From Psychroflexus halocasei (GTDB taxonomy: Bacteria > Bacteroidota > Bacteroidia > Flavobacteriales > Flavobacteriaceae): DNA of 59,241 nt. How positions within the stretch are numbered: position 1 is the stretch's first letter; each line of letters starts with the position of its first letter. Positions 11,354 through 56,496 of this stretch are shown piece after piece. The notes beneath the pieces are model-generated. The model was not told where the DNA came from. It saw nothing but the letters and a program-made list of their open reading frames with translations, and ran no database searches. The translations under genes were made by a program, and so were the position numbers. The stretch covers positions 1-59,241 of the forward strand of contig NZ_FNQF01000010.1 of assembly GCF_900107595.1 (NCBI RefSeq), given 5' to 3'.

Positions 11354-11628
11354 CACTAGTCACTAGTCACGAAAAACAGAATTAGTCTTGAGTCTAAAAG
11401 TCGTGTGTCTTGATTCTAAGGGGAACCGATTCACTAGACACCAATCACGAATCACAAATCACGAATTCACGAATAGGCGAATAACCGATTATACGGATAA
11501 CAGAAAACCGATTCACTATTCACTATTCACCATTCACTATTCACCATTCACTATTCACCATTCACTATTCACCATTCACTATTCACCATTCACTATTCAC
11601 CATTCACTGAAAAACCGACAACAGACAA
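11354..11628. repeat. Heptad-word tract with a perfect ATTCACY array
   Basis: From 11511 to 11608 there are 14 consecutive heptamers, ATTCACT or ATTCACC, mostly alternating. Upstream words (GAATCAC, AAATCAC, CGATTCA) are degenerate versions. The array ends 20 bases from the stop codon of the minus-strand gene at 11629. A plus-strand open frame across it is only the translated repeat. Confidence 0.85.
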
Positions 11629-35695: not shown

Positions 35696-35775
35696 GATAT
35701 AGAGGTTTGGAAGAATTCTATTAATTTTGTGACTCAGCTTTATCGAGAAACACAGGAATTTTCTGCAAACAGAAC
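35696..35775 (+). pseudogene. Relic of a four-helix-bundle gene (N-terminal part)
   Basis: In frame from 35696 the DNA reads DIEVWKNSINFVTQLYRET, then QEFSAN. This is the family's conserved opening (compare DLDVWKESMKLTSLAY at 50955), after which similarity is lost. There is no start codon in frame close upstream. It is a truncated copy just ahead of another, interrupted family member. Confidence 0.6.
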
Positions 35776-35834
35776 GTTACGGGTTAACAGGTTAGCGAGT
35801 TATAAACCTAAGACCTTAATTTAAAAAAGAGAAA

Positions 35835-35996
35835 ATGTCAAAAATTAATACCTTTGAAGAATTAAAAGTTTGGCAAACGAGTAGGACATTGAATAAACGA
35901 ATGTTCGAAATATTTAGAACCAAACAAGATAAAAATACGGGATTTTTAATCAATCATATGTTTAAAACCAGTGGTAGTATTATGGATAATACTTGA
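35835..35996 (+). pseudogene. Four-helix-bundle gene, 5' part, interrupted by a GIY-YIG element
   Basis: Fifty-three codons open with MSKINTFEELKVWQTSRTL and run to FKTSGSIMDNT, then hit a stop that belongs to the inserted element (35993-36284). The family normally continues MDN-IAEGFER. The missing part resumes at 36285 in an open frame. It is one host gene split in two. Confidence 0.85.
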
Positions 35997-36284
35997 CCTG
36001 TGAAATTAATTCAAATCATTATGGGAGGTTTTTTCTATGTTTATATTTTGAAAAGTGAAGTTGATGGTAAAAACTATACAGGTTATACGAAAGATTTGAA
36101 TTTACGATTTAACCAGCACAATAATGGCTATGTAGAATCTACAAAAAATCGTAGGCCTTTAAAATTAATTTATTTTGAAGCTTGTTTATCCCAAAATGAT
36201 GCATTAAAAAGAGAAAAATACCTTAAAACACATTATGGTAAAATGTTTTTAAAAAAAAGACTCAAATCGTATTTCACAGGTTAA
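35993..36284 (+). mobile_element. Mini-element carrying a GIY-YIG gene, with terminal inverted repeats
   Basis: The ends are TTGACCTGTGAAAT (35993-36006) and ATTTCACAGGTTAA (36271-36284), inverted repeats matching at 13 of 14 positions. The 292-base unit holds one gene and splits a four-helix-bundle gene exactly at a conserved motif. AC before and AC after could be a 2-base target duplication. The stop codon of the GIY-YIG gene is formed by the right terminal repeat. Confidence 0.7.
36021..36284 (+). CDS. GIY-YIG family endonuclease-like protein
   Basis: An 87-residue single-domain protein. YVYILKS (6-12) and YTGYTKDL (19-26) are the GIY and YIG elements, Arg29 is the catalytic arginine and Glu66 in KREKYLK the metal ligand. 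The ATG at 36021 is chosen because the family begins a few residues before the YVYIL motif; a GTG at 36000 lies inside the terminal repeat. Small GIY-YIG proteins of this UvrC-like type are abundant in Bacteroidota, with no settled role. Here it is the only gene of a small inserted element, so it may act in its own mobility. Confidence 0.87.
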   Translation: MGGFFYVYILKSEVDGKNYTGYTKDLNLRFNQHNNGYVESTKNRRPLKLIYFEACLSQNDALKREKYLKTHYGKMFLKKRLKSYFTG

Positions 36285-36545
36285 ACAGAAGGCTTTGAGC
36301 GTGATGGGACTAAGGAATTTAAACACTTTTTGTCAATTTCGAAAGGAAGTGCTGGGGAATTAAGGTCTCAGTTCTTTAGAGCTTTAGATATTGATGTAAT
36401 TAATCAAACCGAATTTGAAGAATTGAATATGATGACAACTATTATTGGAAAACAATTAGGGGCATTTATGAATTATTTAAAGTCAACAACTATTAAAGGT
36501 AAAAAATTTTCAGAACCCAGTGAAGATTATGAGTTGCTGAGTTAG
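36285..36545 (+). pseudogene. Four-helix-bundle gene, 3' part
   Basis: Directly after the element the frame reads TEGFERDGTKEFKHFLSIS and continues to GELRSQFFRALDID and a normal C-terminus, ending ELLS-stop. Joined to the 5' part it would give a family member of about 140 residues. A TTG at 36330 could in theory start a 71-residue fragment, but there is no reason to think it is a gene of its own. Confidence 0.85.
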
Positions 36546-36614
36546 GACGTTGTCACACTCTCCCTTTAACGAACCCAAAACCCGTAACTCGCAACCCGTA
36601 ACCCAAAAACACTC
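36546..36614. repeat. Short heptad tract before the sugar transferase gene
   Basis: CCCGTAA CTCGCAA CCCGTAA CCCAAAA is in period 7 (36580-36607), ending 7 bases before the ATG. Confidence 0.6.
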
Positions 36615-37238
36615 ATGTACAAAACCATCCTCAAACCCCTTTTCGACTTCCTCGCCGCTTTAGTAGGCTTGGTGCTGCTGAGTCCTATTTTTATCATCGT
36701 TATGATTGGGCTGGCAATTGCCAACAACGGGAAGCCTTTTTTCTTTCAACGACGCCCAGGCAAAAACGAAAGAATTTTTAGTATCATCAAGTTCAAGACG
36801 ATGAACGACAAAAAAGATGCTAAGGGGGAACTTCTTCCAGATGCAGACCGACTCACAGGTATAGGGAGTTTTGTGCGGAAAACAAGTTTAGATGAAATTC
36901 CACAGCTGCTTAATGTACTCAAAGGCGATATGAGCTTGGTTGGGCCAAGGCCATTATTACCTCAGTATTTACCTTTGTATAGTGAAGAACAAAAAAAACG
37001 TCACTGGGTACGTCCTGGGATTACGGGTTGGGCGCAAGTCAATGGAAGGAATGCTATTTCTTGGGAACAAAAGTTTACTTTTGATGTGTGGTATGTCGAT
37101 CATCAAAGCTTCAGTTTAGATTTAAAAATCTTTTTTTTAACAATGAAAAAAGTATTGATTTCTGAAGGAGTCAGTCAAGACGGACAAGCGACAGCTGAAG
37201 CTTTTAAAGGAAATGATAAATTAGATAATAGACATTAG
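36615..37238 (+). CDS. pglC: Undecaprenyl-phosphate sugar-phosphate transferase (PglC-like)
   Basis: A 207-residue small monotopic phosphoglycosyl transferase, which starts repeat-unit assembly by loading the first sugar phosphate on undecaprenyl phosphate at the inner membrane. A hydrophobic re-entrant helix (about 12-35) is followed by KFKTMND (59-65), the catalytic Asp93-Glu94 in [18 protein letters not shown], and GPRP. The short PglC form lacks the WcaJ N-terminal domain. With PglD, PglE and PglF homologues nearby, di-N-acetylbacillosamine phosphate is the likely substrate. Confidence 0.9.
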
Positions 37239-44689: not shown

Positions 44690-44875
44690 AAACCGAATCA
44701 CGGTAAACTGACAATCGAAAACCGACTACACGGATAGTCAAATAAACAAATACATGGAAAACTATAAACGATCAACTAACAACTGACAACAGAAAACCGA
44801 CTACCGACTACCGACTACCGACTACCGACTACCGACTACCGACTACCGACTACCGACTACCGACTACCGACTACC
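44690..44875. repeat. Heptad tract with ten exact CTACCGA copies
   Basis: Degenerate words (GAATCAC, GACAATC, GAAAACC) lead into ten perfect tandem copies of CTACCGA (44801-44870), ending in CTACCCA just before the promoter of the next gene. Confidence 0.9.
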
Positions 44876-49020: not shown

Positions 49021-49180
49021 AGGAAATTTTCACTTCACTATCGTTTTGTGAAACCGCTGCTCAAACTGCGCTACATGCTATTTTTTGCAAAAAATCAAAA
49101 AGCACTTCCGCTTGTTTGACAGGCTATTTCTGATATTATTCCATTATACAAATAATCGAATACACGAAAAACGAATCACG
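49021..49180. repeat. Direct repeat, module C, copy 1
   Basis: About 160 bases, nearly identical to 49598-49760. Landmarks are AAACCGCTGCTCAAACTGCG, CTACATGCTATTTTTTGCAA and CTTGTTTGACAG. Confidence 0.8.
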
Positions 49181-49560
49181 AATCACGAAACACGAAACAC
49201 GAAACACGATTCACTAATCACGAAAAACAGATAAAAGAATTAGTCTTGGGTTTAATAGTAACTAGTAATTAGTAATGAGTAACTAAGAACGGAAAACTGA
49301 CAACAGACAACCGACTACACGAATAGTCGAATAAACGATTACACGAAAAAACGAAAAACTATAAACAATAAACTGAAAACGGTAAACTGAAAACAGATAA
49401 CCGAAAACTGACAACCGGAAACTGAAAACAGAATTAATCATGGGTCAAATAGTCTTGGGTCGTGAGTCTTGTGAGTCGAATAACGGATTCACAATTCACC
49501 AATCACTGAGAACAGGATAACCGAAAACTCATAAATTGTATCCCTTTCATTTTTTCCAAT
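49181..49560. repeat. Heptad-word tract
   Basis: Words such as CACGAAA, CACGATT, then ACTGAAA, ACGGTAA, ACTGAAA, ACAGATA, ACCGAAA, ACTGACA, ACCGGAA, ACTGAAA, ACAGAAT (about 49371-49436) in unbroken period 7. Confidence 0.75.
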
Positions 49561-50954: not shown

Positions 50955-51308
50955 ATGGATCATAAAGATTTAGATGTTTGGAAAGAGTCTATGAAGTTAA
51001 CATCACTGGCTTATAATTTGGCAAACGAAATGCCAGATAGTGAACGTTATGTTTTAAAATCTCAGTTTTTGAGATCAGCTATTTCAGTTCCATCTAATAT
51101 TTCAGAAGGCGCAGGGAGAGAATCGGATAAAGAGCTTTTAAGGTTTTTAAGTATAAGTTTAGGTTCTTTAGCTGAATTAGAAACTCAATATTTGATTGCT
51201 ATTGATCAAAAATACATTCAGAAATCTATTACATTTGAAAAACAAATTACGAATACTAGAAAGTTAATATTTGGTTTTAGAAATTACATAAGAAGAAAAA
51301 ATGACTAG
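50955..51308 (+). CDS. Four-helix-bundle protein (S23/IVS-protein family), copy 2
   Basis: A 117-residue helical protein starting at the ATG MDHKDLDVWKESM; a TTG three codons upstream is less likely. The family core FLRSAISVPSNISEGAGRES and FLSISLGSLAELETQY is intact. It splits the wzm-wzt pair and is bracketed by strand-switching heptad tracts on both sides. The function is unknown; context suggests a passenger gene rather than a transporter part. Confidence 0.85.
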   Translation: MDHKDLDVWKESMKLTSLAYNLANEMPDSERYVLKSQFLRSAISVPSNISEGAGRESDKELLRFLSISLGSLAELETQYLIAIDQKYIQKSITFEKQITNTRKLIFGFRNYIRRKND

Positions 51309-56295: not shown

Positions 56296-56496
56296 CTCGG
56301 GACTAACGAAAAAAAATAGACATCAGACACTAGAAGTTGGACAGCCGAAAACGAATCACCATTCACCAATCACAGATAACTGAGAACCGAAAACTGAGAA
56401 CCGAAAACTGAGAACCGAATCACGACTCACTAGTCACTAATCACTAATCACTAATCACGAAAAATCGAATCAACGAATAACCGATTATACAATTCA
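56296..56496. repeat. Heptad-word tract after the GT56 gene
   Basis: GAATCAC CATTCAC CAATCAC AGATAAC TGAGAAC CGAAAAC TGAGAAC CGAAAAC TGAGAAC, then CTAGTCA CTAATCA CTAATCA CTAATCA, all in period 7 (about 56351-56460). Confidence 0.8.

Follow-up and report, generated by a model that had tools for sequence, protein, structure and literature searches.

We analysed a window of 59,241 nucleotides from Psychroflexus halocasei (contig NZ_FNQF01000010.1). Between positions 35,835 and 36,545, a gene for an S23 (four-helix-bundle) protein is interrupted by a short insert that carries a single gene, for a GIY-YIG nuclease, and that begins and ends in inverted repeats. The features of this locus are the following:

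35835..35991, + strand: interrupted S23 gene, 5' part; PF05635 positions 1-45; 75% identity to the left parts of L086-L088
35992..36285, + strand: inserted element of about 290 bp (~294), bounded by comparison with the uninterrupted relatives L086-L088 and by the 14-bp arms
35993..36006, + strand: left terminal inverted repeat, TTGACCTGTGAAAT, 13/14 complementary to the right arm
36021..36284, + strand: GIY-YIG nuclease gene, 87 aa from ATG; PF01541, 7.9e-18
36271..36284, + strand: right terminal inverted repeat, ATTTCACAGGTTAA, containing the nuclease stop codon
36286..36545, + strand: interrupted S23 gene, 3' part; PF05635 positions 48-105, 5e-13; TIGR02436; 67-68% identity to L086-L088

The arms are separated by 264 nt. 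Their ungapped core scores 11, a value reached by none of 57 control placements of the same geometry at the same locus (maximum 10). The window copy, like a transposon, is bounded by paired inverted repeats at the site of insertion. The nuclease frame is open from a GTG at 36000 as well as from the ATG at 36021, and its stop codon (36282-36284) falls within the right arm. The S23 frame is terminated by a TGA in the left arm (35994-35996), three bases ahead of the possible GTG start.

Taken alone, the left flank (35835-35993) matches PF05635 weakly (9.6e-4, under the family cut-off); the right flank (36285-36542) covers positions 48-105. Because the two flanks match positions 1-45 and 48-105 of one profile, the host gene has been divided without any sizeable loss. 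Uninterrupted S23 genes from same-genus relatives read ATGGATAATATTGCGGAAGG (L086 and L087) or ATGGATAATATTGCAGAGGG (L088) at the matching place, where the window reads ATGGATAATA[CTTGACC...GGTTAAA]CAGAAGG. Three bases of the uninterrupted sequence (TTG) are not recognisable at the window junction, which accounts for the residue or so that the initial annotation counted as missing, and no target-site duplication is visible in this comparison. The relatives are 68% identical to the window in the right half and so are not alleles of its site. The initial annotation had described a GIY-YIG element with terminal inverted repeats splitting a four-helix-bundle gene within a motif, at the cost of about one residue, and containing as its only gene an 87-residue protein whose stop codon lies in the right repeat; the arm controls, the uninterrupted relatives and the profile match bear this description out.

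The window protein is a member of the GIY-YIG nuclease superfamily, scoring 65 bits against PF01541 (cut-off 22.6). In an alignment of 57 members over 86 columns, the catalytic-type residues Y18, G20, R28 and H32 are invariant and E64 is present in at least 90% of rows. AlphaFold2 predicted a single compact domain (mean pLDDT 95.6). The closest solved structures by profile were UPF0213 proteins (1zg2, 1ywl), followed by SLX1, and a fold search returned 1zg2 first and then ten SLX1 chains, with I-TevI much weaker (E 0.3). The encoded protein is a bare GIY-YIG domain, of 81-87 aa across the family, and we found in it no further DNA-binding domain that would explain target choice. No recognised transposase (DDE, HUH, serine or tyrosine) was detected either: Pfam, PHROGs and PDB searches gave GIY-YIG-type matches only and NCBIfam gave nothing, and by this measure the element does not qualify as an insertion sequence (IS).

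The window assembly (2.67 Mb) holds one close copy only, with two further matches at 34-36% identity. Exact matches to the end pattern TTNACCTGTGAAAT in this assembly are the two arms alone. Allowing one mismatch, the pattern occurs at 17 places (13 forward, 4 reverse; 15 inexact), compared with 3+3 for a reversed-pattern control, and no miniature gene-less copy was seen among the 17. Elsewhere in the window, arrays built from units of 7 or 14 bp, for example (ATTCACT)14 and (ACCGACT)11, occupy 11511-11608, 44796-44875, 49157-49433 and 56378-56461, and a second, uninterrupted S23 relative at 51105-51293 is 35-38% identical to the right half of the split gene.

Paired ends across the family

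A scan of GTDB genomes yielded 52 related loci, and from fetched loci we compiled a table of 135 distinct GIY-YIG places. Small GIY-YIG genes are usually annotated without a function beyond 'putative nuclease'. The initial annotation had called them common in Bacteroidota, and 269 of 397 genomes of the window's taxonomic family indeed have a GIY-YIG match at E<=1e-3. Most of these small genes are not of the paired-end kind: among the matches listed, the window copy and L004-L013 (70-85% identity) are the only close relatives that show ends of this type or remnants of them. More widely, at E<=1e-22 the window's phylum has matches in 16 of the 395 genomes sampled. G463 is a Moranbacteria MAG; in a sample of 286 genomes from its phylum, 87 have a match at E<=1e-15. 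By record title, hosts include Bacteroidota, Patescibacteria, Elusimicrobia, Nitrospinae, Planctomycetes (Scalindua), Omnitrophica and Neomarinimicrobiota; many are MAGs, and single assignments may be wrong. Element length is 265-422 bp (median 292) in the 77 members of the tree set described below that have an arm score of at least 10. Copy number is low, at 1-5 matches per genome across 33 genomes (E<=1e-12), unlike that of an actively spreading transposon.

We then asked of these homologues what the initial annotation had proposed to ask, namely whether they too have paired termini. Among places with at least 90 bits, the arm score was at least 10 in 72 of 95 and at least 12 in 57 of 95, compared with 34 and 9, respectively, of 924 control placements of the same geometry; some rows scoring at least 10 may be chance (e.g. 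L176). End sequences vary by lineage (e.g. TGTGAAAT, TGTCAAAT, TGTTAAAT, CGTTAGAAAT, GGTGCTACAACTTCG), and the two arms within one element agree. In 51 distinct pairs from 74 places chosen by an arm score of at least 8, with the arms anchored separately, seven inner positions gave 258 matches against 170 for shuffled pairs (sd 11, 0/2000). When places were taken regardless of arm score, 75 of them supplied 50 distinct pairs, with 246 matches against a shuffled mean of 165 (sd 11, maximum 200, 0/2000). Locus by locus, no arm control was as good in 40 of 84 loci, one of the 40 (L015) being of the tRNA type described below. L033, a clear family member, was equalled by 4 of 55 controls, and the arms of the epimerase class are eroded and mostly fail the chance control.

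Applied to 965,810 fetched bases, our own criterion returned 671 short hairpins, of which 139 were runs of N. Two hairpins in this survey have family-type ends and no gene: one of 37 bp adjoins the element in L042, and one of 57 bp lies within another GIY-YIG gene in L070, at a TTT/AAA site. These two cases, few as they are, look like miniature derivatives, and such gene-less forms suggest that the ends are what moves.

A search for carriers gave two relatives in IMG/VR (one scan), two plasmid records and 14 phage records. No obvious vehicle emerged from it, the plasmid and phage relatives all being below 60% identity and none spanning 80% of the query. One IMG/VR contig (L243) holds a relative whose ends look like TTTACCCCGT...ACGGGGTGAA. 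Genome G612 has five copies in all at E<=1e-22; two of them (L184 and L186) are 97% identical and sit at the same motif of closely similar tyrosine recombinase genes, which could reflect either a recent jump or joint duplication of gene and element. In L057, two elements lie within 2 kb, one in S23 and the other at the epimerase motif, and in L040 a partial GIY-YIG copy lies upstream of the epimerase fragment.

Empty sites and insertion junctions

Empty sites in relatives had likewise been proposed as a check, and uninterrupted relatives of host genes do exist. The genome of L034 (same sequence as L093; 89% identical to the window copy) also carries an uninterrupted paralogue, L109. For two other elements, queries made of the joined flanks recovered empty orthologues. 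The first, L177, lies in a tyrosine recombinase gene (PF00589), and its empty orthologue L218 comes from the same genus; the flanks are 83% identical over 1104 bp and 86% over 138 bp, and they adjoin to within 3 bp. Where L218 reads ATGTT^AAAAC, L177 reads ATGTT[CACCCC...GGGGTA]AAAAC. The second, L055, lies close to the stop codon of what, from its sequence, we take to be an F1-ATPase beta gene. Its empty orthologue L246, 93% identical in the left flank, reads GAGATT^AAGAAATAG, and L055 reads GAGATT[CACCC...GGGT]AAAAAATAA. Judged from these alignments, the insertion is clean between TT and AA in both pairs, which come from two host phyla.

Other junctions differ from these: L051 is flanked by TCCA left and right, TTG has been replaced in the window-type S23 insertions, and L182 seems to be short of a few bases. 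Among 77 elements that could be anchored at the C-run and its mirror (not the 77 measured for size), 11 had identical flanking 4-mers, compared with 1.8 expected; seven of the 11 belong to the start-codon class. Most Bacteroidota-type elements end TTYA...TRAA, and as the right tetramer TRAA contains the nuclease stop codon, we claim no duplication for them. On shuffling, direct and inverted 4-mer similarity both exceeded chance, so the 4-mer test does not separate the two. We found no constant target-site duplication: the two best orthologous pairs are clean and 4-bp direct repeats occur mainly in the start-codon class. The initial annotation had proposed alignments to define ends and target duplications; comparison with the empty orthologues fixed the boundaries of L177 and L055. 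In L095 (G398), the left part of S23 runs directly into CAGGTTAG|ACAGAAGG, the right junction of the window type; this is possibly the deletion scar of an element.

IS200/IS605 elements insert cleanly without duplication, and the clean junctions and gene-less hairpins could accordingly be read as those of a mobile palindrome that depends on a Y1/REP-type (RAYT, IS200-like) transposase acting in trans, with the GIY-YIG gene a passenger in the loop. Y1_Tnp matches were present in 15 of 17 element-bearing genomes tested. The element-bearing G939 and G467 gave no Y1 match (their assemblies may be incomplete), the only Y1 match in the window genome sits in a 1207-residue open frame, and no Y1 gene was found inside the element. 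The ends of IS200/IS605 elements are separate hairpins and not arms that pair across the element, and 86 of 92 family rows tested with at least 79 residues keep the GIY-YIG frame open and free of internal stops, which is unexpected of a mere passenger. We consider this explanation quite unlikely; a Y1 transposase may nevertheless help in trans.

Targets, repeated movement and host effects

Seven window-type elements share one S23 codon position. Their nucleases are 74-92% identical and their S23 hosts 25-60%; between the window copy and L033, for example, the nucleases are 92% identical and the hosts 26%. Similar nucleases in such divergent hosts argue for repeated movement, and descent with the host gene does not explain the pattern.

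For a tree we drew 92 nucleases from 96 places with an arm score of at least 10 or recognised ends, leaving out L017, L019, L029 and L208, which are without family ends. Target labels, assigned from flank translations, were start codons (18), epimerase (15), S23 at N-x-A-E-G (12), tyrosine recombinase (8), REP-type transposase (7), S23 at a second motif (2) and other (30, including L057_163, an epimerase-type insertion by sequence). Labels changed 24 times on the tree, compared with a shuffled mean of 55 and 0 of 200 shuffles as low; the tree is weakly resolved, with 8 of 89 inner branches starred as strongly supported. Profiles of 10 host pieces agreed with the labels in seven cases (FGE-sulfatase, epimerase, Lcl_C, PDDEXK_3, S23 and phage integrase twice) and gave no Pfam match for the other three, and a REP-associated transposase model matched 4 of 4 proteins, all below its curated cut-off. 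On these labels, element lineages are specialised on different target motifs.

An abutting frame of at least 80 codons was present at 67 of 96 loci, in the sense orientation relative to the nuclease at 61 and antisense at six; of the latter, L017, L019 and L208 are without family ends, and L043, L197 and L215 have a sense host frame too. All 13 epimerase loci examined have one layout: a 5' fragment that breaks off at TGGAGF or a variant of this motif, then the element, and just after it the start of an epimerase frame that contains the complete motif. The start-codon branch is recognised by an ATG on both sides, found in 18 of its 21 loci; the right ATG opens a frame of at least 80 codons in all 18, and in 11 of the 21 the left ATG shares the reading frame of the nuclease, which there probably uses the host's start signal. 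The insertion in L055 is at the extreme end of the gene and touches the last codons only, and those in L036 and L058 are at or near the ends of host domains.

The sense orientation, together with the fold of the transcript, could point to an RNA-level intervening sequence, in which cutting or splicing of the transcript at a stem formed by the paired ends would spare the host gene. Folded as RNA, the window element closes on its terminal stem (z -3.46, 0/100 shuffles as good), and S23 itself takes its name from rRNA intervening sequences. At the window junction, however, TTG is lost and bases are changed, so that simple removal would not restore the original sequence; the intact downstream epimerase and the insertion of L055 into last codons only are what one would see in the absence of RNA repair. 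No RNA family scored above its gathering score in the window stretch or at 18 other loci, and we regard an RNA-level intervening sequence as highly improbable. On the same search (window positions 35700-36700 and the 18 loci) we rejected a group I/II intron or ribozyme. The insert is not a 23S rRNA intervening sequence (IVS) either: S23 here is a protein gene that has been split, and the ORF within the insert encodes a GIY-YIG protein.

The constancy of the targets also bears on whether the insert is a free-standing homing endonuclease cassette, which would spread by cutting empty alleles at a conserved motif and being copied in by homologous repair, its inverted ends being only translational-control or terminator-like hairpins with no part in movement. 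Each lineage keeps one target motif, copies per genome are few, and in the epimerase and tRNA classes the intact gene that follows gives the appearance of homing cassettes that restore their target. Hairpins that control expression, and translational coupling, are known for free-standing GIY-YIG homing endonucleases of T4 (PMC2988022). Against such a cassette, the arms covary and coincide with the edges of the insert in the copies that have a known empty orthologue, and ends of this type also bound the gene-less hairpins inserted at other places. S23 hosts that are 25-60% identical in protein would, moreover, offer little homology for repair. We judge homing rather unlikely.

Candidate mechanism and known systems

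Comparison between loci shows that these elements move, and we infer the part played by the enzyme. The reading that we favour, and hold to be somewhat probable, is that of a minimal motif-targeted DNA element of ~290 bp that is moved by its own GIY-YIG nuclease acting on base-paired ends. The two ends would pair with each other, as a cruciform or as a hairpin in single-stranded DNA; the SLX1/UPF0213-like nuclease would cut both there and at the target motif, leaving the host to complete the joining. According to the titles of the matched structures, SLX1 cuts branched DNA, and an SLX1-like fold with such an activity would fit ends that must pair. Expression of the nuclease gene may depend on hijacking the translation of the split host gene. 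Insertions would survive at places of low harm, such as dispensable-looking genes, gene ends and recreated start codons, and at epimerase sites where an intact gene follows. The suggestion of the initial annotation that a GIY-YIG gene can be the core of a minimal mobile element gains support from the paired ends and empty orthologues, and neither of the two outcomes that it named as refuting was observed.

UPF0213 proteins (1zg2, 1ywl), the best match in sequence and fold, share the single GIY-YIG domain, to which the element gene adds paired boundaries; UPF0213 proteins are not known to be mobile. Insertion sequences and MITEs likewise have a single gene between terminal inverted repeats and gene-less miniature forms (two seen here). 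Unlike them, the element has no known transposase domain, is ~290 bp long, shows no constant target duplication and targets conserved coding motifs. REP palindromes and their RAYT genes share the property of palindrome mobility, and RAYT genes are also targeted by one branch of elements; the arms of the element differ in lying ~270 bp apart around a GIY-YIG gene, with the Y1 gene not inside. The GIY-YIG element of Allomyces atp6 is organellar and reportedly brings a replacement gene end, and is not known to have paired termini. It resembles the epimerase class in that a piece of an interrupted gene stands beside an intact gene, but it acts at the other end of the gene.

With the T4 seg genes and the I-TevI family, the element shares a selfish GIY-YIG gene in or near a conserved target. 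The T4 enzymes join the nuclease to a separate DNA-binding region and their genes are intergenic, whereas the element has a bare domain of 81-87 aa, paired boundaries and insertion inside coding motifs. In rRNA genes of CPR bacteria (Patescibacteria), GIY-YIG ORFs occur in insertions that match no intron, and the authors describe them as sparse and outside the homing pattern (PMC11270868). These are GIY-YIG proteins in non-intron inserts, as here, in a study devoted to rRNA genes; the words 'inverted repeat' are absent from the main text of PMC11270868, as they are from that of a 2006 survey of the GIY-YIG superfamily (PMC1564403). Also near in subject is an account of tandem amplification by the GIY-YIG enzyme SegB (PMC13096335).

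A distant GIY-YIG group in the window's taxonomic family adjoins tRNA genes (L015-L018, L020-L023, L025, L027-L029 and L032). The order there is a 5' tRNA piece, often a GC-rich palindrome such as CCTGCCTGCCGGCAGGCAGG, the GIY-YIG gene and an intact tRNA, the last being present in all 13 listed loci (Arg-tcg in 10, Arg-acg, Ala and Met in one each). In some genomes this unit stands in tandem (matches in G143, G198, G372 and G389), for example at 307-bp spacing in G198.

Our full-text search, mostly of open-access journal papers, found no description of such an element, and the evidence points to an apparently undescribed, very small kind of mobile DNA in several bacterial phyla. More tentatively, and with less than even confidence, we propose that it is the smallest autonomous DNA transposon so far, with ~270-300 bp and a nuclease of ~85 residues, in which GIY-YIG chemistry replaces the known transposases and the ends are recognised by their base-paired shape and not by their sequence. 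If the ends are recognised in this way, lineages would be free to change their end sequence provided that both arms change together. One branch of the widespread small GIY-YIG genes gains an identity here, as self-contained mobile elements with ends, targets and empty sites, and a testable question is raised of how a nuclease without a separate DNA-binding domain arrives at conserved codons. If the nuclease alone suffices, the element would lower the known minimum for autonomous mobile DNA and would provide a very small protein with motif-directed insertion.
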